Virus record (IMG/VR): IMGVR_UViG_3300017786_000157
Span: 1 to 22,891 of that record
DNA length: 22,891 bases
From: a virus
Strand: one strand, 5' to 3'
Both the position numbers and the translations under genes were made by a program. The notes below the pieces were generated by a model. The model did no database searches and was not told the DNA's origin. It saw only the letters and a program-made list of their open reading frames with translations. Shown one piece after another: positions 1 through 18,710 of the stretch; position 1 is the first letter of the stretch, and each line of letters starts with the position of its first letter.

Positions 1-135
1 GCCGCTAGTAATGATGAATGGGAAGCCACAAGCCTCCCGAAGTTCATCTAGTCTGTGGATAAAGTCCACGTTCATTTTATTTTCGCCGGTCTCTTGGCAG
101 TTAAAGTCTTCTAGTTTAAAGTATTTAAATTCCAT
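1..135 (-). CDS. N-terminal part of M15-family peptidase (probable endolysin), cut by window edge
   Basis: Reading back from the ATG at 133-135 gives 45 uninterrupted residues that run off the window. The start reads MEFKYFKLEDFNCQETGE and continues with a predicted helix containing HRLDELREACG and then FPFIITSG. This is the usual opening of phage M15 zinc D-Ala-D-Ala carboxypeptidase-like endolysins: an F-x-L-x-[DE]-F-x-C start, a helix with LDxLR, and a PFxIxSG strand just before the YR that leads to the zinc ligands. The catalytic His/Asp residues lie beyond the window and are not seen. The start codon shares one base with the stop of the giant upstream gene (TAATG), which suggests coupled translation. 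Its likely role is cleavage of peptidoglycan stem peptides at lysis, after the small holin-like protein at 14244-14417 opens the membrane. A virion-associated peptidase is the alternative. Confidence 0.75.
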   Translation of the reverse strand, partial: MEFKYFKLEDFNCQETGENKMNVDFIHRLDELREACGFPFIITSG

Positions 136-3100: not shown

Positions 3101-6100
3101 GACCACCAAAAATATCTCTTTGTGCTTTTCTTAAATTTCTTTTGTATCTATCAACAGTCGGCTCACCCAACATTTGCTTACCGAAGTAGCTTCCAGAAAT
3201 AACCGGGGCTTTGCCTCCTACAGTTGGAATAATTCCTTGTTGAATTAAACTTAAAGCATCAGAGGCTGCTGGGCCAAAAGGCATTGTAGCATAAGCCAAG
3301 TTACTTTGTGAGTATTTAGCCGCAGTCTTAGCACGTTGGAAACTGTCAAGCAATAAACCATTACCACCCCAACGAGCTATTGAAGCGCCTATAATTTCAT
3401 CTAAATCTTTATTACGCTCACTTTCACCACCAGTACGTAAGTAGTTAGTCCATCGAGCCATGCCAGTCATAATAGTTCCGGCAGCTACAATTTTACCAGC
3501 GTTACGTGTAGGAGCTTTAATAAGAGACTTAGCAGCACCCTTTAGTACGGTGTTGGTAAACGCCGCAGGATAACTAAGAAGTTGAAAAAATACAGCAGTC
3601 TTAGGGTTAGAAAACAGTAATGGCTTCAGTCCCGACATTGCAGTAGGCTGAAGAACTACAGAGTTTGTGTAACGTGCAACGCCGCCCAGTAAATCATTTT
3701 TGTAGAAATCATCAGTTCGTTTGGCTCCGTCATCAAACCACTTAACAGCCTGTTTAAAATCAATGCCTAGCTCAGCTAACTCGCCAGCAAGGATTTCACC
3801 ATCTTTATCTAAAGGTCTGCCTTTATAGCGTGTAGCAAGCTTTTCAATGTTTTCGTTTACAAGGGACTTGCCGCTTGAGTGAGAAACATTCTGTACAAAC
3901 TTAGTCCACTGGTCAAGCATGTTTAAACGGAAAAACTTATTACTAGCATTCTGCAAGCCTTCAGTCATCAGCTCGTCGCCTGCTAGTCTATCTCCAACCT
4001 GAGCAAGTGCTTGGTCTACGTGGATACTAAAGTCACGCATTTCTTTCAAAGCTTCGTTAGCTGTCAAGCCGTTTTTGTTCATTAGCTCTGACTCAAGGTC
4101 TTTAGTAATACGCTTGTGAGACTGCTGAATAGCATCGCCAAAACCTTTAACAGAATTACGGACACCCGCTTTCTGGATGTTTAAAAATACTTCTGTTAAA
4201 CTCGATACGGTTGCTAAGCCCAAAAGAGCTACACGGTTTACAAAACTATAAGCATCAACACCCACTTGAGTTTTTCTGCCGTAGCGTTCCATTCCTTCGC
4301 CGGTTGCTGAGCGATAAAGTTTTTCAATCTGCCGTTCAATCTTAGGAGTAAACTGTTCTCCTGATTCTTTCATTTCTACTTTAATTCGATTGATGTAAAA
4401 TCTTTTAAAGTCATCAAAGTTTCTTACACCTAATACTCGATGCTTAGCAATAGACTTACCTGCTTGGAAAGTGTAAGCATGTAAAGAACCAAGAACATCA
4501 GTGTTTAAAAATTCTTCAAACTGAGAATCGTCACCAATAGTATTAATTTTTCTTTTAGCACTAAAGAAGTGTCCACCACCACTGCCAGCATCTACTTGGT
4601 TTTTAACATCAAGCATATTTTTAACAGTTGCTTCAGCTTTAGCTCTAGTCATTCCTGCACTATCAATAAACTTTTGAACTAAACCCTCTTGGTTTTTTTC
4701 AATAGCGCTACGGCTCCACATACGTGGAATGTAGTTATCTTGGAGCTTGTCAATCACACGAATCTTTTTAAGCTTAACACCCATTTCATTATAAAGGTCT
4801 CTAACTTCTATAGCAGCTTTGTTAATTGCTGCGTTAGTTTCGTCATCAAAACCTGAGTGCTTGAGAGGCTTAGTGCTCCGCATACTTTTACTTAAAGCAT
4901 CATTAATATCTGTTGCAAGTTTAGTGTCCAACTTACTTAAAGAAAGAGAGTCTACAATAGAACGGAAACGCTCGTTGTACTTGCCAGTAACTTCACGCTG
5001 TACTTCAGACAAGTCTTTAGCTACTACCTCGTCTTGAATTTTATATTTAATACCAAACTCGTGACTTAATTTTTTCTGTAGTTGTGCGGCAGTCCCAGAA
5101 AACTTAGTTAGTGGAGACAGTACACCCGCTGCTTTGCCATAAAAGTTTCCGCTTAAATCAGAAGCTACTGTATATAAGGCTTGTTTAATTGCGTTTGTTT
5201 TCCCTGCAACAGTGGTTTCGTTGTTTGCAGCAGCCCTAATAGAAGCTAAGATTTCTCTTCTAGTTTTTTCACCACCACCAAGGTCATCAGCAAACTTTTT
5301 AGCTGCTGCGTCTAAAGCCTCATCATCCATATCAAAAGTACGTGCAGTCGCATCATCAGTACCGTTTACAGTTTTAGCTGTAGCACCTTCAGGGCCGCTA
5401 AGACGTAAAGCTTCATCTACTACAGAACCGCCAGACGAAGGAATCCACTCGCCTTCTATGCCTTCATCAAAAGCTTTAACAGCTTCTTCACGTTTTACAG
5501 GCAAAGCAGGCTCTGTAGATTCTCTAAAAGCTTTGTTGCCATGCTTAGAAGCCGCATACATACCGATACCTTTAGGTATAACATAGCCTAAAGTTCCACC
5601 TATAGCTCCGCTTATTACATTTGTTGCAACACTATAATCTTCTTCTTTCATAATGTCAGCAGAAATATCTAGCTCTTGCATCAAGTGCGAACCAACTACA
5701 CCGTGAGTTGCGCCATAAATAGTAGAAGCCTTAATAGGGTTTTTAGTTGCTGCCGCTACAGAAGCTGCAACAGCTCTTGATAAAGCCTTTTGGCCTGCTA
5801 CCTGTGCAGCTTTTCGAGCCGCAATAGTTGCTGCGGTTCCTGCGCCAAAAGTAGCCGTTCCTGACAACAACCCGCCAACAGTTGCAAGACCTTCTGGGCT
5901 AAAAATTAAATCAGCGCCATAGTCTTTAACCATGTCAAACTTTTCGCCAGCACCTGTAAGTGAAGCCTTGTCCCAACGAGACTTCATAACTCTGTAAGCT
6001 CTCTTAACATTTTCTGGGGCATCTTTTAATGAAGCTGCAAGAGACAGAGGCGCACCAATGCGGAATGTTAAATCACGCATATATTCAGCAGGGTCATCTG

Positions 6101-6341
6101 TTTGACCAGTAGTAGCTTGGTCTATAGCATAACGAGCTGCGCTTTGAGTCTCACCTAAATAATCGGTAAGAATTTCATAGTTATTAATAACTACTTCATC
6201 GTTTTCCCAATCTGTAACTGAATATTCTATTGGAACCATTTGATGTTCGCTGTAATATTCTTTTTGTTCCGCACTCATAGACTTATCTACTTTGCCGCCA
6301 GTTGCATTAAACTCTTCTGCATACTCTGAATATTTACCCAT
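135..6341 (-). CDS. Giant internal virion (ejection) protein with C-terminal ADP-ribosyltransferase-like polyvalent module
   Basis: 2068 residues, starting at ATG 6341 with AAAGGAT upstream, lying inside the end of the previous gene. Residues ~145-270 are Gly/Ala-rich and hydrophobic, like membrane-active stretches of ejected proteins. DNYIPRMW (535-542) and a helical core near 690-850 (VALLGLATVSSLTE, LDQWTKFVQNVS) resemble the middle of large T7 gp16-type internal proteins. The C-terminal third differs. Residues ~1385-1620 contain ARELSTHVGS (R1396, H1401), YINVRNPL, GFDSVKYVNQVEF (E1579) and YILFEPEQFK, the layout I know from ART-PolyVal ADP-ribosyltransferase-like domains. Residues ~1795-2025 contain NYREVVLTL, HIRLADID, DEVQSD (1854-1859), an AAEEGYDQVALTTG segment and ITDKMRKDIDRGLLMF, a second module often found in giant phage proteins. 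Inferred role: ejected with the DNA, forms part of the entry conduit and delivers effector domains. No transglycosylase motif is visible here; that activity sits in the preceding gene. Confidence 0.8.
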   Translation of the reverse strand: MGKYSEYAEEFNATGGKVDKSMSAEQKEYYSEHQMVPIEYSVTDWENDEVVINNYEILTDYLGETQSAARYAIDQATTGQTDDPAEYMRDLTFRIGAPLSLAASLKDAPENVKRAYRVMKSRWDKASLTGAGEKFDMVKDYGADLIFSPEGLATVGGLLSGTATFGAGTAATIAARKAAQVAGQKALSRAVAASVAAATKNPIKASTIYGATHGVVGSHLMQELDISADIMKEEDYSVATNVISGAIGGTLGYVIPKGIGMYAASKHGNKAFRESTEPALPVKREEAVKAFDEGIEGEWIPSSGGSVVDEALRLSGPEGATAKTVNGTDDATARTFDMDDEALDAAAKKFADDLGGGEKTRREILASIRAAANNETTVAGKTNAIKQALYTVASDLSGNFYGKAAGVLSPLTKFSGTAAQLQKKLSHEFGIKYKIQDEVVAKDLSEVQREVTGKYNERFRSIVDSLSLSKLDTKLATDINDALSKSMRSTKPLKHSGFDDETNAAINKAAIEVRDLYNEMGVKLKKIRVIDKLQDNYIPRMWSRSAIEKNQEGLVQKFIDSAGMTRAKAEATVKNMLDVKNQVDAGSGGGHFFSAKRKINTIGDDSQFEEFLNTDVLGSLHAYTFQAGKSIAKHRVLGVRNFDDFKRFYINRIKVEMKESGEQFTPKIERQIEKLYRSATGEGMERYGRKTQVGVDAYSFVNRVALLGLATVSSLTEVFLNIQKAGVRNSVKGFGDAIQQSHKRITKDLESELMNKNGLTANEALKEMRDFSIHVDQALAQVGDRLAGDELMTEGLQNASNKFFRLNMLDQWTKFVQNVSHSSGKSLVNENIEKLATRYKGRPLDKDGEILAGELAELGIDFKQAVKWFDDGAKRTDDFYKNDLLGGVARYTNSVVLQPTAMSGLKPLLFSNPKTAVFFQLLSYPAAFTNTVLKGAAKSLIKAPTRNAGKIVAAGTIMTGMARWTNYLRTGGESERNKDLDEIIGASIARWGGNGLLLDSFQRAKTAAKYSQSNLAYATMPFGPAASDALSLIQQGIIPTVGGKAPVISGSYFGKQMLGEPTVDRYKRNLRKAQRDIFGGLIEDFDKPQKALKLNAGGTAIAKAVAPAIESLFKKGGDKALEESLPVPLASDVLGTLENSTKGLVNKSALNKVASNIEGSVGLGVAEGSVKLSQENAAKLAEANVFTMIGAKKGDLDFAESNPNFQEAVKTGDVEKAAFKLEQYQKDLGYNDDQILAFRTISEIKDEGGSKDLVKASVANEIQSIKDAFDDFNIKISDVERTKAQEAKFDEESLDATHDFLTAILKDREPLLSPEGAPIVARDAIVKIAARGNVNFDKFKAPKLNPTEKPDASLTEAQRIKALKKHVEKSDTQDIIRRSIRNFKTSEYNVSFPFARELSTHVGSEGVAYTITLRDMIFDLYTGETAQKMYNGFKDLKPTKAEYEEKFEQLKKVAKQRYGEDYEMPTNLIQEGYINVRNPLMYAGETQADTWKAEAILASLDGVNELLGNIQKSGGKVTDASVKRMKALRVRALDLETKPVESLVDEIELDLMKNEINIDLRNEIKSYGFDSVKYVNQVEFGFENQSKHSYILFEPEQFKLVTATKFDSKDPRHNFAAGSIAKAVVKAFAPKKASGFYSKAEKASQELVGSKPKPGQSFLNQLEKKQITPDELEWTGAKERFGNNKPTTKEEVQQFFKESDFDFDVNVGRAKAVDLEIVDDMPVHINDKGEEVDAFSYWLEENKPFEAEMLDSLLDVDDPKAWDELFEEMFEEFKKASNRGSDFDAANEHLTFAFENIDTQNYREVVLTLKNKYKKVSTDYEHPHHKQLKNQVAHIRLADIDETDDAFTKTLLVDEVQSDAHQQASKKAKGKQYQTSDEQLSPELQAEIKRSNESSGMLDFDSEELAVPTLPLKKNRQWGGLGLRQAMKIAAEEGYDQVALTTGRLQAIRNNKDIASGEGKKFLEFYDKTLIDIWQKEFAKKYGVDIKMVKYNRNADIVELPTLKITDKMRKDIDRGLLMFVEGGEVISEQAQTVAASEPVSLLDTEPTPKSTGRTVAALKANLQRNVA

Positions 6342-6347
6342 TAATAC

Positions 6348-8813
6348 TTATCCTTTAAGTTGGTCTGCTAGTCTTGTAATATAGTCTCTAGTTTCTTTTG
6401 GAAGGTCTGCTTTGTCAGCTCCACTCTCAATCCATTCACGAGTTGCTCCCGGCCCCATGTTATATGCAGCAGCAGCATACTCTAAGTTACCGTCAAACGC
6501 TATATACATGGCTTTAAAGTATTCCTGACCTACACGAGTACGTTCTTTATCACTATCATCTTTAGCAGGTTTAATTCCATATCCCGGCTGTGCAAGAGTC
6601 TCAGGCATCACTTGCATCCTACCGAGAGCGCCTACAGGACTAACTGCGTCAGGGTCATTGTTACTTTCAATCATCGCTACAGCATCATACAGTTTTGTGT
6701 AGTCTTCATCAGAAGCATCTTCTGGCTTGACAAATGAAGCCAGTGGGTTGTCAGGAGTTCCAAAGTCACTTAATAAACTTTGAAGTTGCTTTCCTACCGG
6801 AGATGGGACTTCAGGTTTAAGTACGCCTGTTGTATTCTCACGAGTTCCCGGCGTACCTTTCCGGCCATATTTGTCACTATAAGCCTTATAAGCGTCGTCA
6901 TAGTCCTTTTTAAAGTCTTCTAGTCCTTTTTCGAAACGAGATAATTGCGGAGAACCTTTCTTATACACACTAGCGTTTAGCTGTTTTTCTCGTCTTTTAA
7001 CTTTTATAAGCAGTCTTTCAAGCTTAGCATAATCTTTATGCTGACCGTCGTGAAGGTTTTTACTTCTGCCGTATGTTGGAGCCTCACCTTCAGGCGTATT
7101 CAATCTATAAAACTCTGCTACAGAATATTTACCAGTTTTACCTACTGCATCAGTATCAGTATTAGCATCAGAAGTTGTAGTTGTAGTTGTAGTTGTAGTT
7201 TCAGTTGTAGTTGTATCTTCGGCAGCTTTCTGGTCTAAAATTTGAGCAGCGATGGTTACTTTATCGCCTATCTCAGGAACGCCAGTATACATGCTTGGGT
7301 TGTTAAGAATTTCTTCCATTATGTCTAGTGTTGTTTCAAGCTGATTACCGTCTACCATATCTCTAAAAAAGTCAAAACCTCTGGTTGCTTCGGCTTCGCT
7401 ATTTGGTGCTCGTAGCTTTTTAATAAATATATCACGCTCTTCTTTACCCATGTTGTTCAAAGCGTTATAAATTTTGTTGTCATCATTAACAAGCTTAGTA
7501 GCAATTGCTCGTTTGTTTGTTAGGTTCATGTCCTGCAACGCTTGTAAGGTTTCAAAAACATTACCCTGACCAATAGTATCAGGAGCAGTTTCGCCTGCAA
7601 TACGATTTAAAGCTACTTGACGATAAATCTTTCGGCCTTCATCTTCTGTTCCCATTCCTTGTCTTTCAAATAAAAGACCGGCAGCAACAGTCATTGAAGC
7701 AAATGCTTCCTGCTTTAATAAAAGTTGGGCTGCATACGCAGGGTCTCCCGACTTTATTGAGCCGTTAGATTCTACGTCAATTTGTTTTTCAAACATTGCG
7801 TTAATAGGCGCTGTAATAGCCCCTTGGTTGTTAAACTCAATAACTCCTTGCTTCACAAGATTAGCAGGCATTTTAGCTGCAACTTGAGCAACTGTAAGTT
7901 CTTCAGCATCAGAGACGCTTGAACTTTGTGAAACATTTCCTGACCCATCTAGTCGAACATAGGTTGTATTAGAGACTACATTTCCGTCATTATTTCTATA
8001 ATATGTTGTAGTTGGAATAACAGAAACGTCTATACTTTGCCCAAACATATCTTGACTTTTTATTGTAGTTACTTCGCCAGTTACAGTTGCAGGAACACCT
8101 GCGTCACTTGGCATATTTTTAGCAATGTAATCAGCAACATTAGCGTTCCGTGTTTTTCTCCAAGCATTTCCATAGTCTTCTTGATACTGCTTAGTTGAAG
8201 TGACCATATTGTCGTTGATTAAAGAATCTAAATCTGTATTGTCGTTTCCTGTTAGTCCTTTTACAAAAGGCATCACAAGCCCGGTTAGTGTTTTTTCAGG
8301 CGCACCACTTTTTATTTTGTCTTGATATTTGGCAGCACTACCCGTAGTTAAGTATTCTTTAGTAGCGTCAAAACGCTCATTAAGCGCAGCTACTCTTTTT
8401 TCTTCTAAGCTATTAACTGACTTGTTAAGCCACTTGTTGAACGTGCCTTCGTTGTAATTTCCTGTTGTTCCGTGAACCTTCTGCCACTGATTCGTCAACT
8501 CATCTGTCAACTGCTGTCGAGCCAAGCCTTCAACACCTACTCCATCATCTAAGCTTTTTTGATAAGCAGCTAAATCGTTATTGGCTTCTGTATAGCTTTG
8601 ACCCAAGAGCAGTTGGTTCTTTACCAACTCTTCATTGTTTAAAAATTCTTGGTGTTTAGAATTTGCTACATTTTGTGCTATGCCAAGAGCCGCATTAATA
8701 CCCACAGCTTTCCATGCGCCTTGTCTTGCTTTACGCTCGTTTGTTCTAGCAGTTTTTTCATTTTCGTCACGTATGCCCTGTAATAAAGACTCGCCGTATG
8801 TTGTTGAACTCAT
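6348..8813 (-). CDS. Internal virion protein with C-terminal lytic transglycosylase domain
   Basis: 821 residues, ATG at 8813 with AGAAGGA upstream. The last ~110 residues form a soluble lytic transglycosylase (SLT, goose-lysozyme-like) domain: AVAMIESNND with the presumed catalytic Glu at residue 716, then GALGRMQVMPETL, then AAAAYNMGPGATREWI near 780-790, ending in DYITRLADQLKG. These are the usual E-S, G-x-x-Q-x-M-P and A-Y-N-x-G motifs of the family. Residues 1-530 are mostly helical with no family I can name, and contain many Asn/Gln. A Thr-rich linker near 533-550 separates the two parts. Expected role: carried in the virion and cutting a local hole in the host cell wall during DNA ejection. 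In T7 this enzyme is at the N-terminus of gp16; here it is C-terminal and on a separate protein next to the gp16-like giant. Confidence 0.85.
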   Translation of the reverse strand: MSSTTYGESLLQGIRDENEKTARTNERKARQGAWKAVGINAALGIAQNVANSKHQEFLNNEELVKNQLLLGQSYTEANNDLAAYQKSLDDGVGVEGLARQQLTDELTNQWQKVHGTTGNYNEGTFNKWLNKSVNSLEEKRVAALNERFDATKEYLTTGSAAKYQDKIKSGAPEKTLTGLVMPFVKGLTGNDNTDLDSLINDNMVTSTKQYQEDYGNAWRKTRNANVADYIAKNMPSDAGVPATVTGEVTTIKSQDMFGQSIDVSVIPTTTYYRNNDGNVVSNTTYVRLDGSGNVSQSSSVSDAEELTVAQVAAKMPANLVKQGVIEFNNQGAITAPINAMFEKQIDVESNGSIKSGDPAYAAQLLLKQEAFASMTVAAGLLFERQGMGTEDEGRKIYRQVALNRIAGETAPDTIGQGNVFETLQALQDMNLTNKRAIATKLVNDDNKIYNALNNMGKEERDIFIKKLRAPNSEAEATRGFDFFRDMVDGNQLETTLDIMEEILNNPSMYTGVPEIGDKVTIAAQILDQKAAEDTTTTETTTTTTTTTSDANTDTDAVGKTGKYSVAEFYRLNTPEGEAPTYGRSKNLHDGQHKDYAKLERLLIKVKRREKQLNASVYKKGSPQLSRFEKGLEDFKKDYDDAYKAYSDKYGRKGTPGTRENTTGVLKPEVPSPVGKQLQSLLSDFGTPDNPLASFVKPEDASDEDYTKLYDAVAMIESNNDPDAVSPVGALGRMQVMPETLAQPGYGIKPAKDDSDKERTRVGQEYFKAMYIAFDGNLEYAAAAYNMGPGATREWIESGADKADLPKETRDYITRLADQLKG
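7173..7214 (-). repeat. Hexanucleotide microsatellite encoding a poly-threonine linker
   Basis: The plus strand reads as consecutive agttgt units (7173-7200), then a two-base break, then two more units (7203-7214). On the coding strand this is alternating ACA/ACT codons, giving a nearly pure Thr run with one Glu. Any gain or loss of a unit stays in frame and changes the linker by two Thr, so linker length could vary between strains. Confidence 0.85.
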
Positions 8814-10725: not shown

Positions 10726-13700
10726 TTATTTAATAACTGTTGTTAGCCAAGTATTAGCATCATTAGCATCCTTGGCTGCAATCTTTTCATTACCAATGGC
10801 AGTAGCTAGTAGCTGAGCTTTACGTTGTTCTTCGTTTTCAAAAGACTGTCGAGTATAAGCGGCTGCATCACGCAACTGCTGCCAAACTTGAGTAAGCTCT
10901 TGAGAAGTTAAGTTGTAACTTATCTGAGCGTTCTGTTGGTTTGCTGCATTTTGAGCTGCGGTATCAGCTAAATTAGATTGCCGTCTCCACTGTATATTAG
11001 ACTGCTCAACAGCCTGTGCATTTGCTGCATTCCATTGGTCACGCTGAAAGTCTTGTTGCTCATTAAACTTTGCAATGTCTGTTTCAAGCTGTTGTTCAAA
11101 CTGGTCAGCCTGTAGTTTATTGCCTGCGTTTAAAGCTGCAATACGGTTCTTTTCAGTAGCGTTAAACTGCTCCCTAGCTGTATTAGCGCTTACATTATAC
11201 TGCTCTATCTGCACTCCAAGATTAGCCATAAACTGGTCTGCTTGTTGCTGACTAGAGGCGTTAAACTGAGCCGCTGCGTTCTGTGCTGACTGATTACTTA
11301 ACAAAGCTTGTTGATTTTGTTGAGCTGTTAAAACTGCTGATTGTTGTCTATTACTTAAATTAGCCATATCCATTTGCAAAAAAGACTGTGCATTTGTAAC
11401 TGCAAGTTTAGTATTCTTGTCAAGGTTCGCCATATCCATAGAAGCCATAGCGGTTGCTGTTTGTAGTGCAGCCTGTTGGTCAGCGCTAAATTTAGAAGCT
11501 GTCATGTTTTGCATAAACTTACTATTAGTTAATTCAACTTGCTGAGCTGCGTTAAACTTAGCTAAATCAATTCCAGCGTTAGTTTGTGCATTTACAACTG
11601 CTCTTTGTTGGTCAACATTTAACTGTGCAACATTCATCTCTGCTGCAATCTTACCCTGAAGTAAGTTAGTCTGCATACGTGTGTTAAGGTTAGCTAGTTC
11701 TGTTTGTTGAGCGTTGCTAAGATTTTCAGATGCTGCTTGGTTCTGAGCACTCAAGTTAGCTAGTCGCATTTGCTGGTCATTAGACAGGTTAGCCAAGTTC
11801 ATTTGCTGTTGGAAGCCTGCATTCTTAGCTAAGAAGTCTGCGGCAATCTGCTTGTCTTGAGCCGTAGCACTTTGGATAGCAGAAGCGTTTGCCTGAGCCA
11901 TTGGAATAGCACTTTGAATAACAGCGTTAAACAAAGCATCACGACCAACACTTGAAGCACTCATTCCTCGTCGAGCTAGGTTAGCTTCAACTTTAGCGAG
12001 AGCCGGTCTAGCCCATGCAGGAACTTCGCCATCTTCCATGCCAGACATAAGAGATTCCATCTGTACATCAATCAAAGCTTCTTTCGGAAGACCTGAAAGT
12101 GTAGTACGCACATCTTCAGGAAGGTCTTCCATTTCATCTGCAATAAGGTCTGGTTCGTCTGCAAGGCGATTAGCAATTGCGTCGTCTGATAAACCAGCAG
12201 CTTTAAGCTTTTTAACAGCTTTCTTTTTAGCATCTGCGCCTTGTATTGCTCGTTTCTGAGATTGATTATAGTCATACATACTCATAATTTCAGCAGCTTC
12301 ACCAGTAGCAGGTTCGCCTACAATAGCTTCACGTTCCTTAGCTTCAGCTTCTTTTGTTTCTTCTACAGTAGCTACTTTACCAGTCACTGTATTTACATAA
12401 GCACCCTCACTAGAGCTGTACTCAACTTCCCCTGCTTTTGCAGCCTCTTCAGCAAGTGTGTCTCTAGTAGCTGCTGTAGCTTTAGCGCCTTCTGAAAGCG
12501 TAGCGTCTTCTTGGGCTGCAATAGCTTTAGAGTCTTCTTCAATGCTTCCTTGCGCTGTTTTTACAGGGCGCATAGCAGAAGTTTTATAAAACTCTTCTAA
12601 CTCAGTTTCGTGTTGTGCTAAAGCTTCTTCAAATGCCGGAGTACCTCCTTTTCCTACAAAGTCTTTACGTAAAGGCTTTGGAGGCGGAACCCCAATTGTA
12701 GTCGCTTCCATACTAGAAGCTGTTACATCTGTAGGCTTAGAAACTTCTGTTTTAGACTTATAGTCAGCCAAAGCTGCCTCAAACTGGTGTTGAGACTCGT
12801 AATCTTGTCTTACAGGCTTCGCTGTCGTTTGAGCAGCTGTTACTGATTCAGCAGTAACTGTGTCATCTTCTGTTCTGGTTATCTCAGCACTGTCATTAAG
12901 TTTTTGAGTCTTAGAAACAGGTGTTATTGTGTTTTCTTTAGAAACAGTATCTACAGCTACTGTAGGAGCAGTAACGTCTGGGCCTGTTATTTCTATATCT
13001 GTAGGAGCTTCAGAATCTCTGCCTGATTTTACGGTTACATTCGCACCGCTTTCATCTACATTTCCTTCATTTCCTTTACCGTCTGGTAAACCCTTATCTC
13101 CTGTATTAGCCATATCATCATTCCCATCGCTGTCGTTATTATTATTACCGCCGCCGCTAGTTCCGTCACCAGTAGGGTTATCTATTTGGTTGTTTGTGTT
13201 GCCTTCTTCTGCGCCGCCTCTATCATGCCAAGTTCTAACAAAGTCATACATGTCTTCTTGATAATCTTGATATTCGTTGTTTCGAGTTTCCCAATCATCA
13301 TACGCAGCGTTAAATTCTGCGTCAGTCATGTTTTCAAATTGACTTTTATTTCTGTCTGGCTTACCCGGTCTTTGTTGAAACTGTAAAGGAGCTTCGTGGT
13401 CAATTTGTGTTCCACGAATAACAGTTCTTTGGTAGTCTCTTTCAAGTTTACTTACTTTACCATCGCCATCCATATCGTAGTAATCTGTAAAACTTTTTGC
13501 TGCTTGACCGCCTTCGCCGGGGCTTCCAAACGGCCCTTGGAAAGCAGGCATTTCAGTTCCAGTAGGTTTAAAGTCTACTGCGTTTTCAAAATCATCTGGG
13601 TCATAAGCAGGGTATTCAGGTTCTTCAGCAAACCCCGGCCCACCATAGTTAGGGCTTTCTGGGCCTTGGGCAGCTTCCCAAGCAGCTAAAGCTGTTCTAA

Positions 13701-14247
13701 ATGCTCCATAACTAGGATAATCATCAGCTGTGGGTCTAGGGTCTCCATTATTAAAAGTTGGAGCAGAGCTAGAACTTGTAGCTACTACTCCCTCTGAGTT
13801 GCCTTGCGCCGTGAGGTCTGGACTATCACCTTGAGCATCTTCCCACTGTTGTTTTACATCAGAAGGTAAATTATTAAGCGCATAATCTCCGGTTGTGTTT
13901 ATGTAATGTTCAGCAAAAGCCGTGTAATAATCATCTGCACTATCATAATCATTTACAGACGGAGCTGAGCCTGTTGGAGAAGCAGCCTTCTGAGGCTGTG
14001 ATGTAGATTGCTGAGCCGGTGTAGCCTTTAAGCTCATTTGTTGTGGTTGAGCTGTTGGAGGGTTAAGCTTAGAAGTAACAGCGTCTTGGTTTGCTGCATT
14101 GTTCTGGGTTAATTCAGCTTTTTCAGGGCCTGCAACGCCTGTACCCGGCTTTGGAGGATTAGCGGCTGCTAGGTTTTTTAGCGCTTCTGGGTCAAGCAAT
14201 CCACCTTCAGCTAATTTTTTGCGTAGATATTTACTAGCTCTACTCAT
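10726..14247 (-). CDS. Large virion protein with disordered N-terminus, EF-hand loop and long 11-residue-repeat helix
   Basis: 1173 residues. The ATG at 14247 overlaps the holin-like stop as ATGA. The first ~700 residues are Pro/Gln/Asp/Gly-rich and probably disordered. They carry several degenerate copies of a short helical motif of the form D-Y/F-x-S-x-x-x-F-x-x-A-L-A-x-Y/W-E (for example near residues 96, 178, 480 and 527), a canonical EF-hand loop DMDGDGKVSKLE (258-269) and an Asn/Gly/Asp run near 365-395. Residues 808-1126 are 29 gap-free 11-residue units (ANLSNDQQMRL, FNASSQQQADQ and similar), rich in Asn, Gln and Ala, which predicts a very long continuous alpha-helix or hendecad coiled coil. 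I know no precise function. Its place at the head of the ejection-protein block suggests an internal or conduit-forming virion protein; a tail appendage is the alternative. Confidence 0.8.
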   Translation of the reverse strand: MSRASKYLRKKLAEGGLLDPEALKNLAAANPPKPGTGVAGPEKAELTQNNAANQDAVTSKLNPPTAQPQQMSLKATPAQQSTSQPQKAASPTGSAPSVNDYDSADDYYTAFAEHYINTTGDYALNNLPSDVKQQWEDAQGDSPDLTAQGNSEGVVATSSSSAPTFNNGDPRPTADDYPSYGAFRTALAAWEAAQGPESPNYGGPGFAEEPEYPAYDPDDFENAVDFKPTGTEMPAFQGPFGSPGEGGQAAKSFTDYYDMDGDGKVSKLERDYQRTVIRGTQIDHEAPLQFQQRPGKPDRNKSQFENMTDAEFNAAYDDWETRNNEYQDYQEDMYDFVRTWHDRGGAEEGNTNNQIDNPTGDGTSGGGNNNNDSDGNDDMANTGDKGLPDGKGNEGNVDESGANVTVKSGRDSEAPTDIEITGPDVTAPTVAVDTVSKENTITPVSKTQKLNDSAEITRTEDDTVTAESVTAAQTTAKPVRQDYESQHQFEAALADYKSKTEVSKPTDVTASSMEATTIGVPPPKPLRKDFVGKGGTPAFEEALAQHETELEEFYKTSAMRPVKTAQGSIEEDSKAIAAQEDATLSEGAKATAATRDTLAEEAAKAGEVEYSSSEGAYVNTVTGKVATVEETKEAEAKEREAIVGEPATGEAAEIMSMYDYNQSQKRAIQGADAKKKAVKKLKAAGLSDDAIANRLADEPDLIADEMEDLPEDVRTTLSGLPKEALIDVQMESLMSGMEDGEVPAWARPALAKVEANLARRGMSASSVGRDALFNAVIQSAIPMAQANASAIQSATAQDKQIAADFLAKNAGFQQQMNLANLSNDQQMRLANLSAQNQAASENLSNAQQTELANLNTRMQTNLLQGKIAAEMNVAQLNVDQQRAVVNAQTNAGIDLAKFNAAQQVELTNSKFMQNMTASKFSADQQAALQTATAMASMDMANLDKNTKLAVTNAQSFLQMDMANLSNRQQSAVLTAQQNQQALLSNQSAQNAAAQFNASSQQQADQFMANLGVQIEQYNVSANTAREQFNATEKNRIAALNAGNKLQADQFEQQLETDIAKFNEQQDFQRDQWNAANAQAVEQSNIQWRRQSNLADTAAQNAANQQNAQISYNLTSQELTQVWQQLRDAAAYTRQSFENEEQRKAQLLATAIGNEKIAAKDANDANTWLTTVIK
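10870..11826 (-). repeat. 29 consecutive 33-bp (11-codon) hendecad repeats
   Basis: The encoded residues 808-1126 can be cut into 11-residue units with no insertion or deletion. The first part alternates ANLSNxQQ-type units with more variable ones (22-residue super-period: ANLDKNTKLAV, ANLSNRQQSAV). The second part has units that begin with an aromatic or hydrophobic residue followed by Asn and often end in Gln (FNASSQQQADQ, YNVSANTAREQ, FNEQQDFQRDQ, WNAANAQAVEQ). Nucleotide identity between units is low, so this is an old repeat kept at protein level. Confidence 0.85.
13441..13476 (-). other. EF-hand type calcium-binding loop within the 1173-residue protein
   Basis: The 12 codons give DMDGDGKVSKLE, with Asp at loop positions 1, 3 and 5, Gly at 6, Val at 8 and Glu at 12, which matches the canonical EF-hand loop. 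The residues before it (FTDYYD) and after it (RDYQRTV) are only a partial fit to flanking helices. There is one copy only, so it may be an isolated calcium-binding loop. Confidence 0.65.
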
Positions 14248-14417
14248 TTATTTTTCCCTTTAACTAAACCCTGAACTGTTTCAGATTCAAATATACGAAT
14301 CCCTAACCATACAATAGTGAAGACAGAAGCAATAGGCGGAAGCCAAGCTGCTAAGGCCATAACACCTGTGGATGCTGCTGCAATGTCTACTACTTCTTTG
14401 CCTTCTTCAACGGTCAT
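14244..14417 (-). CDS. Small holin-like membrane protein
   Basis: 57 residues from ATG 14417 to TGA 14244. It begins MTVEEGKEVVDIAAAST and has one strongly hydrophobic stretch, residues ~18-42 (VMALAAWLPPIASVFTIVWL and onward), then IRIFESETVQGLVKGKNK. AAGGAG lies about 7 bases before the start, overlapping the stop of the 85-residue gene, and the TGA overlaps the next ATG (ATGA). The acidic N-terminus, single membrane segment broken by Pro-Pro and basic tail, together with the WLPxIxxxFTIxWLGIRIxE pattern, match small putative holins I know from marine and T7-like phages. Expected role: inner-membrane pore formation that times lysis and gives the endolysin access to the wall. It is the only gene in this interval. 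Another small membrane protein is possible, but the tight operon position and the motif favour a holin. Confidence 0.78.
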   Translation of the reverse strand: MTVEEGKEVVDIAAASTGVMALAAWLPPIASVFTIVWLGIRIFESETVQGLVKGKNK

Positions 14418-14427
14418 GGATTACTCC

Positions 14428-14685
14428 TTAGTCTTCTTCAGCTTGAGATGCAAGATGAGCTGCATAAGCTGCAACTACTTCGCTTGTATGTACTGTTGCA
14501 CAGATGCCCTGTACTTCAGTTGATTCGCCGCTATAGTCGTCACCCGCTGAAATTACTTTGCGGTTAAAAGAACGTGTAAGTTCTACACCGTCTTCTTTTA
14601 CTACGGTTGCAGTACGAACCTGTACAGCTTTATACAGGCCTACTACTTCAATTTTATCTTCAATTGTTTCTTTTGTTAAACTCAT
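14428..14685 (-). CDS. Small conserved phage protein, function unknown
   Basis: 85 residues from ATG 14685, preceded by ACAGGAG about 7 bases upstream. The protein has a beta-rich core, IEVVGLYKAVQVRTATVVKEDGVELTRSF, then GDDYSGESTEVQGICATV and a helical end, TSEVVAAYAAHLASQAEED. I recognise the overall pattern as one seen beside tail-fibre and holin genes of marine phages, always without a known function. It lies directly between the fibre and the holin-like gene, and its TAA is part of the holin-like gene's ribosome binding site. A small virion or fibre-associated protein is plausible, but nothing in the sequence proves it. Confidence 0.8.
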   Translation of the reverse strand: MSLTKETIEDKIEVVGLYKAVQVRTATVVKEDGVELTRSFNRKVISAGDDYSGESTEVQGICATVHTSEVVAAYAAHLASQAEED

Positions 14686-14702
14686 TTGTTTTCTCCTGTC
14701 CG

Positions 14703-14722
14703 TACTTAGAATCCACTAAGTA
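14703..14722 (-). promoter_or_regulatory. Perfect 7-bp-stem hairpin between the fibre gene and the 85-residue gene
   Basis: The coding strand reads TACTTAG, a six-base loop (TGGATT), then CTAAGTA. It sits just after the fibre stop codon and just before the next ribosome binding site. No U-run follows, so it does not look like an intrinsic terminator. An RNA processing or stability element is more likely. Confidence 0.5.
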
Positions 14723-14725
14723 TAA

Positions 14726-17080
14726 TTAGTCTGCTATATAAGTGTGTGTAATAAATAAATCTGCAACGCCTTCGCTGCTTTCATCATCGTCTACTGCATT
14801 CCAGTTAATTGTTCCTAGACCACCAACATTTGTAGAGCTACTTAATATCATGTAGCTTGTATTTTCTGTGATTCTGCTTTGAATAGAGCTTCCATAATCA
14901 ATGCGTGTGCTTTCTACAGTCCCAACATGTCTAAATGATGGACTCAAATTAGCAGCAGCAAATGGAAGACCAGTAATATAAACATCATTGCTCCCAGTCA
15001 TGCCGGTTTTACTTACATTTATCACACGAATAGTTAAGTTTACATGCCTTCCGATTTTAGTGTAAACACCAGAAAGGTTTGATGCCCCTGCAACATTACC
15101 ACCAGAAGTAGCGTCTCGCATTACTGGAGTCCAACTTCCTTCTTCGTAATCGTCTAAAAGATTTGAACCGCTAGTACCGCCTAAATAAATACCCTCAGAT
15201 GTTTCAATTTTACCTACAACATCAAGAGTAGCACTAGGAGATGTTGTGCCAATACCTAAACGTGCATTGGGCGCATCCCACTTCATTTTAGTAACAGCAG
15301 AGCTATTATAGAAATTAAAATCACCATCACTAGCTACTTTGAACCTGAGAAGATTGTCTGTGCCGTTATTAGATTTAAACTCGATTGCACCGTGGCTAGT
15401 GTTGTTTCTAACTGTAGTCACAAAAGAACCGCCAACCTGTATTTGCTCAGTTCTTTGGTTTGTTCCGTCAGAGTCATTAAATTGGATTCTAGGAGTTGAA
15501 TCAGTCAGTGTAAGGTCGGCTCCGCTAATAACACCAGTAGCCCCAAGAGTAGTAAAGCTACCCGCTGCTGCTGTAGAGCCGCCAATCACTGTACCATCAA
15601 TTGCACCACCATTAATATCAGCAGTAGCAATTGTTCCGGTTGTAAATGTACCTGCTGCTGCTGTTGAGCCGCCAATTACTACGTTGTCTGCTGTACCACC
15701 ATTAATGTCAGCAGTAGTCAGTACGGAGCTTGCAAGAGTCACAACGCCTGTAGAGTCTGCAATAGAGCCTGCGGCAGTACCATCTTTAGCTTTAAGGTTT
15801 GTAACTTCAAGATTGGTTGTATCAACTGTTGTAGCGTTTGAAGTTGTTACAGTAGAAGTAGTACCGTTAATAGTGGTAAACGTACCTGCTGCGGCTGTGG
15901 AACCGCCGATAACTGAACCATCAACTGTTCCGCCATTAATATCAGCGGTGGTCAACACAGAGCTTGCAAGAGTCACAACGCCTGTGGAATCTGCGATAGT
16001 ACCAGCAGTTGAGCCATCACGAGCTTTAAGAGTTGTAACTTCAATTTGTGGAGTATCAATAGAAGAAGAAGCATTAACCGTTTGTGCGCCAACAGCGCCG
16101 GTTACAGTAGCGTTCCCTGTAATAGTTGCGCCTGTGCTAGTGGTCTCAAACTTTTTGCTGTTGCTGTAATATAAGTCTACTGAAGTTCCAAATACGCCGT
16201 ACGTAGTAGCGGCAGAAATTAAACTAATATTAGCAGCTCCCTGAACATATAAGTTACCTGTGCCAACATCCTTAACCCATGAGTTACTGCCGTCGTGGAA
16301 AATTTCAAGGTCTTCAGAAGCACCAAACTTTAACTTAACATCATCAGGAACAGACAAGCCGTTTGCATCTACAGTAAACTTCGTAGCTGCTGAAGAAGCT
16401 ACAGTAATTCCTGTTGAGCCATTAACTGTTAAACTTGTAGCTCCATTAGCACTACCCATAAGTATTTCGGCATCTGCCCTAACATATAAGCTACCAGTAC
16501 CGGCTTCTTTAATGTAAGAGTTACTTCCGTCGTGGTAAATAAGCAAGTCGTCAGAAGCTCCGAACGCAGCGTAAGCGTCATCGGCAAACTCAAGAGTGTT
16601 TTCACTTGAGTCCCAAACAACATTAGCTGCTGCACCAGTAAGTGTTAAGTCACCTGTAACCACGCCGGTTACAATATTTGTAGTTCCGGTGCCTGTAATA
16701 GTTGCTGCGCTTACTGTATCTAAGTAAGCATCTTTAAAGCGTACAGAAGATGTACCGAGGTCTACGTCACTGTCGGTTACAGGAACAATTGCTCCATCTT
16801 GAATGCGTACTTGCTCTACTGTACCGCTGCTTACTTGTACAAACAAACCAATTCGATTGTTAGTTGAATCAACTTCAATTTTATTTAGAAAGTCTTGGTC
16901 GCCAATCTTAGCAATGTTACCGCCTTCTCCTGCACCGCCATCGTGTTGGTGGCCTGTAGTTCCGCTGCTTGCGTATGCAAAAGCATTAAGAATCTGATTA
17001 AACTCATTGTTAAAAAGAGCCGCAGTAATGATGTTACCATCTGCAATTGTACTTTGTCGTGTATAGCTTGTGCCTGCCAT
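14726..17080 (-). CDS. Tail fibre protein with internal repeats
   Basis: 784 residues, ATG at 17080 with AGGAGA upstream that includes the end of the previous gene. The N-terminus (MAGTSYTRQSTIADGNIITA, then GHQHDGGAGEGG near 43-55) is the type that anchors marine podovirus fibres to the tail. The shaft is Thr/Ser/Gly-rich with two repeat families: an FGAS-[DE]DL-x-I-[YF]-HDGSNS unit (near 170 and 248) and a long IADSTGVVTLASSVLTTADI unit (near 355 and 433) continuing into VIGGSTAAAGTFTT, with a third, shorter copy near 480-512. A peptidase-like self-cleaving motif is not evident. The C-terminal ~145 residues start at LLDDYEEGSWTPVM and contain SGVYTKIGRHVNLTIRV, a module common at phage fibre tips that probably contacts the host receptor. 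Trimeric beta-rich fibre, host recognition. No fibre-assembly chaperone gene is seen. Confidence 0.88.
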   Translation of the reverse strand: MAGTSYTRQSTIADGNIITAALFNNEFNQILNAFAYASSGTTGHQHDGGAGEGGNIAKIGDQDFLNKIEVDSTNNRIGLFVQVSSGTVEQVRIQDGAIVPVTDSDVDLGTSSVRFKDAYLDTVSAATITGTGTTNIVTGVVTGDLTLTGAAANVVWDSSENTLEFADDAYAAFGASDDLLIYHDGSNSYIKEAGTGSLYVRADAEILMGSANGATSLTVNGSTGITVASSAATKFTVDANGLSVPDDVKLKFGASEDLEIFHDGSNSWVKDVGTGNLYVQGAANISLISAATTYGVFGTSVDLYYSNSKKFETTSTGATITGNATVTGAVGAQTVNASSSIDTPQIEVTTLKARDGSTAGTIADSTGVVTLASSVLTTADINGGTVDGSVIGGSTAAAGTFTTINGTTSTVTTSNATTVDTTNLEVTNLKAKDGTAAGSIADSTGVVTLASSVLTTADINGGTADNVVIGGSTAAAGTFTTGTIATADINGGAIDGTVIGGSTAAAGSFTTLGATGVISGADLTLTDSTPRIQFNDSDGTNQRTEQIQVGGSFVTTVRNNTSHGAIEFKSNNGTDNLLRFKVASDGDFNFYNSSAVTKMKWDAPNARLGIGTTSPSATLDVVGKIETSEGIYLGGTSGSNLLDDYEEGSWTPVMRDATSGGNVAGASNLSGVYTKIGRHVNLTIRVINVSKTGMTGSNDVYITGLPFAAANLSPSFRHVGTVESTRIDYGSSIQSRITENTSYMILSSSTNVGGLGTINWNAVDDDESSEGVADLFITHTYIAD
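15545..16025 (-). repeat. Imperfect repeats in the tail-fibre shaft
   Basis: Two long copies and one short copy of a Thr/Ser/Gly-rich unit lie in this interval. A block of about 26 identical bases recurs near 15725 and 15958 (contains gcttgcaagagtcacaacgc). The ADINGG and VIGGSTAAAG codons are also repeated near 15560-15610, 15640-15700 and 15885-15940. The pattern fits shaft growth by in-frame duplication or recombination. Confidence 0.8.
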
Positions 17081-17084
17081 CTAG

Positions 17085-18710
17085 TTATCTCCTGCCTGCG
17101 GGAACGTAATTAATATATAAACCATTAATAGTATATGGTGAAAGTTGGTCTTCGCTGCTAATTTTAAAGTTGCTTGAGTAAAAACTACCCTGAACTGTTT
17201 GGCGTAGTAGCGGGTTATCCGCTGAGCCAAAGTAAGCATCGTTAAACAGACTTACACCAAACTCTGCCGCCGAGCGAATAACCGGAAGAGTATAAATAGG
17301 CGGCTGTTGGATTCCTGTGTCTTCAAAGTCAAAAAGAACTTGAAGCTTTGGTTGTGCAAAGCCCACAGCAAATTTATCTGGGGTTGCTGATAGCTTAATG
17401 TACTGAGCAGTCTTACGTGTACCCATATCACCAAAGTCTAAGTAAGGTGTTTGGTAACGAGCGTTTACGTTTGCTGCTGAGCCTGCGTGTATAAAAGAAT
17501 TACCTGTATCGTGATTATATACGTAACCGTCACCATCGCCGTGTATTATTTGTTCAACGCCAGAATACAAAAAGCCACTATCTATTGCTGGAGCTTCAAT
17601 ACCTTGACACTCTGACCATTCAAAGCCTTGGCCTGTAAATGTACCGATAATGCCTTTAGATTCTGCCGGGCCGTTACTTGAGTTGTTGTAGTATAAACGA
17701 TACTGGGACTTAGAGCGCAGTACAACGCTGCTGATTGTAAAATTGTTTATGTTGTTTGAAATGTCACTTACAATACGTTGAATGTTTCTGCTTACAGAAG
17801 TCAGCTCAACATCACCAATACGTGCTGTGCCTGCTAGTGTTCGGATACCGTCAGGGCTTAGGAATACTAAGTCACCACCAATTTCCTGAATACTATTGCC
17901 GTCTAAGCAACCTACGTTCTTAGTGATAGGAACAATAGCTGCGTTTGTTTTGTCTTCCATGTTCACAAACTTATGGATGCTGTTCTGACAGAAGATAATG
18001 CAATCGCCTCGGAAGCTTTTAAGTCCTACTACTTTATCAGAAAGGACTACTTCATTAGCGCCTGAACCTGTAAAGTTATCTACTTCTAGGAGATGGCTGT
18101 TAGTAACTGTGTTAGGCTTTGCGGCTACGCCTGAAACTACTAAGAAGTTATTATGTATTGTACCTACTGTCGGCGCATCTGTTCCTGACACCGTAATCTC
18201 GGCGGCGAAAAATGTACGAGTATTTAAATCGCCTGTGCCTGTCATGTAAAAATAGTAAGGCTTGTTAGCTCCGTCGCATATAACTACTTCGCCGTATATG
18301 GACTTACTTCCTTCAAAAATAGAAATAGAAGACTGGCCTTGGGCTGTACGTGCAAGAGCTGAACGACCTGTAAAGGCTGTGTAGTTGTCACCACTACCAG
18401 CAACAGAGGCTCTGTTAATTTGCAACCAAGTTGCGCCATCATTACTGAAGTAAATATTTGTTCCGCTGCAAACGATTACGCCGTCTGCATAAGTCTTAAT
18501 GCCTAAAACAGCATTAGAGCTGTTAGGTCTTGCGGTGCTACCGCCACCGTAGTCTGTAAAGCCGTTGATACGGCGATAGCCGCCATCGGGGTCAACCTCA
18601 AAGTTCATTAACTCTGTGGCGATACCGGGCTGCTTGAGCATTTCAATCTCGCTGATGTTGGTGTTAAGACCACCCTTACACGAGAAACCAAACGGTTGGG
18701 AAGCTGCCAT
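17085..18710 (-). CDS. Tail nozzle/tail tubular protein B-like protein
   Basis: 541 residues, ATG at 18710 one base after the upstream stop codon, with only a weak GAG-type ribosome binding site, so translation is probably coupled. It opens MAASQPFGFSCKGGLNTNIS, then EMLKQPGIATELMNFEVDPD and GGYRRINGF, followed by beta-rich sequence (GVIVCSGTNIYFSNDG, FLSPDGIRTLAGTARIGDVE). This opening and the beta-rich, propeller-like body resemble the podophage tail proteins placed after the adaptor, namely T7 gp12-like tail tubular protein B or the P22 gp10-like stabilisation protein. It is shorter than T7 gp12 (about 794 residues). It follows the tail tubular A-like gene directly, as expected for a tail tube/nozzle pair. 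The family is likely; the exact subfamily is uncertain. Confidence 0.78.
   Translation of the reverse strand: MAASQPFGFSCKGGLNTNISEIEMLKQPGIATELMNFEVDPDGGYRRINGFTDYGGGSTARPNSSNAVLGIKTYADGVIVCSGTNIYFSNDGATWLQINRASVAGSGDNYTAFTGRSALARTAQGQSSISIFEGSKSIYGEVVICDGANKPYYFYMTGTGDLNTRTFFAAEITVSGTDAPTVGTIHNNFLVVSGVAAKPNTVTNSHLLEVDNFTGSGANEVVLSDKVVGLKSFRGDCIIFCQNSIHKFVNMEDKTNAAIVPITKNVGCLDGNSIQEIGGDLVFLSPDGIRTLAGTARIGDVELTSVSRNIQRIVSDISNNINNFTISSVVLRSKSQYRLYYNNSSNGPAESKGIIGTFTGQGFEWSECQGIEAPAIDSGFLYSGVEQIIHGDGDGYVYNHDTGNSFIHAGSAANVNARYQTPYLDFGDMGTRKTAQYIKLSATPDKFAVGFAQPKLQVLFDFEDTGIQQPPIYTLPVIRSAAEFGVSLFNDAYFGSADNPLLRQTVQGSFYSSNFKISSEDQLSPYTINGLYINYVPAGRR

Follow-up and report, generated by a model that had tools for sequence, protein, structure and literature searches.

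Between the presumed tail fibre gene and the presumed ejection-protein block of the virus record IMGVR_UViG_3300017786_000157 lies a reading frame of 57 codons. The question raised by this locus is whether the encoded protein serves in host lysis, as was proposed in a first-pass annotation which considered the frame an overlooked, holin-like gene. The window analysed here is the whole IMG/VR virus record, a genome fragment of 22,891 bases, whose capsid protein is closest, among GenBank phages, to that of Pelagibacter phage HTVC115P (53%), the value for HMO-2011 being 44%. A 9.5-kb part of the window, compared by megablast with GenBank phages, matched none of them, records of the same genome possibly having been left out of this comparison. 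The features on which the following rests are:

1..135, minus strand: first 45 codons of an M15-type endolysin gene, cut by the window end (PHROG match and identity to record G005)
6348..8813, minus strand: presumed ejection protein of 821 aa, carrying a transglycosylase SLT domain, PF01464 (PHROG and Pfam scans)
10726..14247, minus strand: downstream 1173-aa gene, presumed start of the ejection-protein block (role inferred from position)
14244..14247, minus strand: ATGA stop/start overlap of the 57-aa gene and the 1173-aa gene (sequence)
14244..14417, minus strand: gene of the 57-aa holin-like membrane protein, ATG to TGA (read from the sequence; conservation)
14271..14297, minus strand: motif R-I-(Y/F/W)-E-x-x-T-V-Q at the membrane exit, codons 41-49 (R41, I42, E44 and T47 invariant in 49 of 49 members)
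14298..14384, minus strand: uncharged hydrophobic stretch, codons 12-40 (two predicted helices, with a break at W25 beside the invariant P27)
14424..14429, minus strand: Shine-Dalgarno sequence AAGGAG, with the ATG 6 nt on (read directly)
14428..14685, minus strand: upstream 85-aa gene of PHROG 6228, unknown function (PHROG match)
14726..17080, minus strand: 784-aa presumed tail fibre gene, upstream (role by position)

The reading frame, its conservation and its neighbours

The frame, read from 14417 down to 14244, translates to MTVEEGKEVVDIAAASTGVMALAAWLPPIASVFTIVWLGIRIFESETVQGLVKGKNK and ends in TGA. Its AAGGAG overlaps the TAA stop codon of the upstream 85-aa gene, and the ATGA at its other end is made up of the next gene's ATG (14247-14245) and the TGA of the 57-aa gene (14246-14244), so that the complete frame with its own ribosome-binding signal and the overlap, as described in the first-pass annotation, was borne out by the sequence. 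On reading the sequence no dual start was seen within the gene, and a promoter and terminator scan of positions 14000-15000 returned counts close to the shuffle mean. As the window holds 104 frames of at least 40 aa and frames of this size are common in it, a frame of 57 codons proves nothing by itself, and conservation decides.

One IMG/VR scan with the single sequence as query yielded 109 confirmed relatives, 80 of which were kept, and a profile scan yielded at least 597, 80 of them kept. Bacterial genomes contributed 29 loci, and 28 once L114 was set aside: its hit to the family profile (E=6e-5) lacks the RIxE motif and was judged fortuitous. For 40 non-redundant sequences pN/pS over a 44-codon core is 0.22, and each of the other sense frames contains stops in 39 of the 40. 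The 49-member alignment holds D11, P27, W37, R41, I42, E44 and T47 invariant, whereby Q49 varies once. To judge from these comparisons, the 57-aa frame is a real gene under purifying selection, and conservation in related phages, on which the first-pass annotation had staked its proposal, was found. The description of the gene as overlooked did not stand: the window comes without annotation to compare, and in GenBank phages 4 of 50,697 records match at E<=10 (the fourth, P19250A, with E=0.1 from the window protein and 1e-7 from another member), all four copies being annotated CDSs called 'hypothetical protein', hence the gene lacks a name but had not been overlooked. Among the open-access literature returned by the terms searched, no paper was recognised as being about the family.

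As to the neighbouring genes, the endolysin start (135 to 1) matches PHROG 894 'endolysin' (E=4.7e-10) and is identical in 45 of 45 residues to a complete 119-aa protein in G005. The 1173-aa protein matches no PHROG and, above cut-off, no Pfam family, while the PHROG matches of the 784-aa protein are to unknown and virion structural proteins. Relatives of the PHROG 6228 protein occur in 68 GenBank phage records, chiefly from Prochlorococcus, Synechococcus and Pelagibacter phages, whose genomes range from about 36 to 210 kb. A presumed tail protein of 541 aa (17085-18710, minus strand) matches PHROG 5107 'amidase' (E=1.2e-84), and HMO-2011 carries a gene called amidase in a position like that of the 541-aa gene; this label may be an old annotation error, Pfam showing no amidase domain in the 541-aa protein.

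The predicted membrane protein

Residues 12-40 are uncharged in the window protein and in 45 of the 49 members. The Kyte-Doolittle hydropathy peaks at 1.85 (19 residues), but the unweighted Hessa-scale sum does not fall below zero, the best 19-mer reaching +3.0 and the best 15-mer +0.9; central prolines account for this positive sum, and membrane insertion is hence likely, not certain. AlphaFold2, given 49 sequences, predicts helices at 3-24, 26-43 and 46-54 (mean pLDDT 86, pTM 0.47). The mean net charge amounts to -2.1 at the N-terminus and +1.7 at the C-terminus (residue 41 to the end), the C-terminal charge being the higher one in 44 of 49 members and equal in four. As looked for in a holin, the protein is thus small with at least one membrane segment, by hydropathy only, and carries a hydrophilic, basic C-terminal tail. 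If the chain crosses the membrane in one pass, its acidic N-terminus would lie outside and its basic C-terminus inside; a short two-helix hairpin instead of one kinked pass is possible, and both fit. Of the single membrane segment claimed earlier, the segment is supported by hydropathy and by the AlphaFold2 helices, whereas the Hessa sum is unfavourable.

Comparison with known holins and other families

The first-pass annotation had suggested a search of holin profiles, and no such profile recognises the protein. The window protein has no PHROG or Pfam match at E<=1, and NCBIfam returned only NF006749 (E=0.057), far below that model's cut-off. Among 27 members the best PHROG match was phrog_16835 'membrane protein' (E=0.0048), and holin profiles gave just one match to PF06946 (E=0.043) and one to phrog_4237 'holin' (E=0.053); of 49 members, none matches a PHROG named holin. 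The PF11351 profile matches neither the window protein nor any of the 27 members, the PF11351 matches in 40 records being genes other than the 57-aa homologue. A structure search of BFVD at E<=10 matched no viral predicted fold, and a PDB sequence search gave two matches (E 0.28 and 0.43), both to unrelated proteins. The 57-aa protein is holin-like by context, with no convincing match to a named holin family in Pfam, PHROGs or NCBIfam.

A positional counterpart considered was T7 gene 17.5 (NC_001604), an annotated type II holin which, like the protein described here, is a small membrane protein encoded shortly after the tail fibre and ends in a basic tail, with 67 residues as compared to 57. 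Membership of the 57-aa gene in this family, with a T7-like position, would explain the similar size and slot, and 33-36 columns can be aligned at 22-27% identity. However, no significant sequence or profile similarity was found: profile-profile comparison with the T7 family (hhalign) gave a probability of 0.8-2%, six of 100 column-shuffled T7-family alignments scored the same or higher, and the next genes in T7 are terminase and spanin, whereas a presumed ejection gene follows in the window. Based on a scan of 80 loci (41 unique proteins) and the column shuffles, membership was rejected and is to be regarded as very improbable.

Two further families share the neighbourhood. Proteins of PF11351/phrog_3427 (GTA_holin_3TM, TeaA-type) are found in common lysis neighbourhoods and often adjacent to the 57-aa gene, but are larger (about 120-140 aa), are soluble in their N-terminal part and have several membrane segments, and hence constitute a separate, co-occurring family. 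DUF7940/phrog_1356 'holin' is likewise a small membrane protein of lysis cassettes and co-occurs in PP438421 and L100, but has a separate profile and is present besides the 57-aa family rather than replacing it.

Gene neighbourhoods in viral genomes

The reading that the protein serves in lysis derives from the family's neighbours in other loci. Among 82 non-redundant viral loci, an M15 or GH24 hydrolase lies within 2.5 kb in 18, a PF11351-type gene in 29 (15 of them within 40 nt) and a phrog_2524-type membrane gene in 10 (seven within 40 nt), the distances of the latter two types being taken between stop-to-stop frames. In L028, L035 and L036 about 0.5 kb separates the homologue from an M15 endolysin akin to that of the window. 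PHROG 6228 loci without the 57-aa gene served as control, with a different redundancy key resulting in 107 instead of 82 viral loci. A hydrolase or PF11351-type gene within 2.5 kb was counted in 52/107 loci against 6/49 controls (p=7e-6), in 65/107 against 6/49 with the phrog_2524-type added (p=6e-9), and hydrolases alone in 23/107 against 4/49 (p=0.04), related loci not being independent. In its fairest form, with full 2.5-kb flanks on both sides and 12 control loci, the control is weak, the counts then being 23/52 against 2/12 (p=0.11) and, with the phrog_2524-type added, 29/52 against 2/12 (p=0.02); none of the searched genes is nearby in 23 (or 29) of the 52 fully flanked viral loci.

A single '3TM holin family' comprising both the PF11351-type and the phrog_2524-type genes was rejected. 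The two profiles share none of 79 frames and align over 20 columns, and phrog_2524 accordingly counts as 'unknown function', the sole link being a sub-cut-off Pfam match in L108 (17.9 bits as compared to 24.8).

As for the GenBank phages, the homologue of PQ867840 lies beside a lysozyme gene and that of PP438421 beside a DUF7940 'putative holin' and a lysozyme, while P19250A has no annotated lysis gene beside it; in PQ867840 and P19250A a different gene, located elsewhere, is annotated 'holin'.

Two other genes recur at these loci. A gene of about 340 aa (N-terminus near QFYILTS) directly follows the homologue in L003-L005, L007, L008, L023, L025 and L027, where it separates the 57-aa gene from the next large one; it is absent from the window, and by a DGDD stretch its product looks like a glycosyltransferase. 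A protein of 142-157 aa with a C-terminal hydrophobic segment is encoded near the homologue in 19 of the 82 non-redundant viral loci (directly upstream in L006, L008, L009, L029 and others); for its L008 copy the PHROGs gave no match and Pfam just DUF4826 below cut-off, and it is possibly another lysis component.

Lysis cassettes in bacterial genomes

The bacterial loci were judged prophage-like from their neighbouring genes. Since GC-rich bacterial loci yield spurious ORFs, endolysin candidates were chosen by eye before the Pfam scans, which were run on the 19 of 28 loci with such a candidate, none having been seen by eye in the other nine (L087, L091, L094, L096, L099, L104, L107, L110 and L111). 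In 16 of the 28 loci, the product of a gene one to two places downstream of the homologue matches a peptidoglycan hydrolase of Pfam with a score above the curated cut-off, the types being:

GH24 after the homologue: L088, L092, L093, L100, L101, L103, L106, L112
GH108 after the homologue: L089, L098, L105, L113
M15 after the homologue: L086, L095, L108
Muramidase after the homologue: L102

The remaining scanned loci gave a CHAP match below cut-off (L109), DUF5675 (L090) and no match (L097). DUF5675 directly follows the homologue in L081 (14317-14739) and L090 (5216-5629), in the position held by the endolysin in other loci, and may be a cell-wall enzyme.

Five loci (L089, L092, L098, L101 and L106) show the order homologue, endolysin, i-spanin-like gene with an N-terminal membrane segment and overlapping o-spanin-like lipoprotein gene, and L105 shows the same order with no o-spanin found, the spanin-like calls being made by inspection and not by profile matches. 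In L098, for instance, 4 nt are shared between the homologue (4968-5168) and a GH108 endolysin (5165-5770); next come the i-spanin-like protein (5788-6216) and the overlapping lipoprotein (6047-6382), and the genes upstream of the homologue lie on the opposite strand. No other holin candidate was seen in any of these six loci, and five of the six cassette genomes gave no DUF7940 match, that of L106 having one match outside the locus. The endolysins of the spanin-bearing cassettes possess an N-terminal hydrophobic segment, whereas by inspection those of L045 and L093 lack one. In the lysis cassette of phage lambda the genes are ordered S-R-Rz/Rz1. The 57-aa family occupies the S position in the six prophage-like loci; the likeness is one of position, and unlike in lambda the window's endolysin is distant and no dual start was seen.

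The split arrangement in the lineage of the window

In the window the M15 endolysin starts 14.1 kb from the 57-aa gene, and the wide separation of about 14 kb described in the first-pass annotation recurs in relatives: an M15 endolysin was matched in 17 of the 40 relative records searched, and in 11 of these 17 (G002-G005, G007, G008, G012, G031, G036, G037 and G039) it lies 11-21 kb downstream. Three records (G021, G023 and G024) have it within 1 kb of the homologue, and two (G020 and G032) have it upstream, the placement in G014 depending on the circularity of the record. By inspection, G020 and G032 (L209 and L210) carry the M15 endolysin directly before a terminase large subunit-like gene.

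In six records (G007, G008, G012, G014, G031 and G036) the M15 endolysin has a PF11351 match no more than 2 kb away. G005, the closest long relative, has no PF11351 match; there, three proteins follow the endolysin (214, 271 and 158 aa, an N-terminal hydrophobic segment being present in the third) and then a 123-aa protein, which is 72% identical to the phrog_2524 protein of L029 and represents a phrog_2524-type membrane gene 1.9 kb past the endolysin. Given these membrane genes near the endolysins of relatives, the window probably stops short of the gene for a further membrane protein, itself a candidate for the holin; this point, missed in the first-pass annotation, is the chief amendment to it.

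A probable function in lysis

Taken together, the 57-aa protein is suggested to act at the holin step of host lysis, a reading which we consider fairly probable on genomic grounds. According to the mechanism proposed, the small protein would accumulate in the cytoplasmic (inner) membrane late in infection, oligomerise there and, at a set time, let the endolysin reach the cell wall, whereby membrane insertion, hole formation and timing are all inferred. In this phage a further membrane protein, whose gene would lie close to the endolysin and outside the window, may share the job. The designation as likely lysis timer was hence retained in part: a conserved small membrane protein does occur in lysis neighbourhoods elsewhere, but it is no more than a candidate holin or timer, and second candidates exist in relatives.

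Within this reading, the pore-forming holin itself is a serious possibility, if short of an even chance, and the six cassettes without any other candidate argue for such activity. A role as co-holin or antiholin partner of another holin is rather less likely, and the frequent PF11351 neighbours argue for it in those loci; wherever a PF11351 or DUF7940 gene adjoins the 57-aa gene, the former encodes the better candidate for a holin. The most specific form of the partner role, to be held with the same reserve, would be that of an antiholin or co-holin which binds a TeaA-type PF11351 holin in the membrane and sets or delays its trigger. A precedent is found in ICP1, where TeaA (PF11351) is a demonstrated holin with the antiholin ArrA: TeaA, expressed ectopically, lowered the proton motive force signal and was triggered by dinitrophenol, and the authors detected ArrA homologues, among organisms with TeaA homologues, in vibriophages only (PMC7182436). 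The abundance of PF11351-type genes close to the homologue is consistent with such a partnership, as are the six split-arrangement records with PF11351 near the endolysin and the phrog_2524-type gene of G005, which stands there even though PF11351 has no match. Against it speak the six prophage-like cassettes, the about 17 kb between homologue and phrog_2524-type gene in G005, and phrog_2524 itself, being without known function and linked to PF11351 by that one match only. Moreover, ICP1 is not among the four GenBank phage records with a homologue.

That the protein has no part in lysis is a little less improbable than the partner role. Other small membrane proteins occupy or adjoin the same slot in HMO-2011, HTVC115P, HTVC103P and CRP-345, with the endolysin elsewhere in HMO-2011 and CRP-345, and the slot alone is therefore not indicative of a holin. 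As a function outside lysis, a membrane protein of the ejection module was considered, such as one that anchors the internal virion proteins or helps in their assembly, translated from one message with the 1173-aa gene. Such a role would account for the ATGA overlap with the presumed ejection gene and for the other small membrane proteins filling the slot in HMO-2011-like phages; however, the family adjoins endolysins in many prophage-like loci with no ejection-like gene needed, and the homologue of MW202697 is located two genes before the terminase, which leaves this role improbable.

A broader proposal can be formulated, albeit as a doubtful one: the 57-aa protein, marked by its invariant D-P-W-RI-E-T signature, might be the so far missing and widespread partner which, in marine phages, sets the trigger of the larger, TeaA-type holins (PF11351). 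The pair would then have been split around the ejection block in some lineages, including the present one, while in some alphaproteobacterial prophages the small protein would act alone as the holin.

Implications

Lysis timing sets the burst size of marine phages. The family identified here counts hundreds of members in uncultivated viruses, yet is covered by no Pfam, PHROG or NCBIfam profile, and with a family profile, genes in many genomes that are now called 'hypothetical' could be labelled as coding for a probable holin-step protein. The frequent pairing with PF11351 offers a testable candidate regulator of those holins outside vibriophages; beyond the missing profile and this pairing, the findings amount to ordinary lysis-gene annotation. 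The 57-aa gene is a member of a widespread, unnamed family often located among genes for host bursting, and its protein is hence probably part of the switch that sets when the cell bursts.
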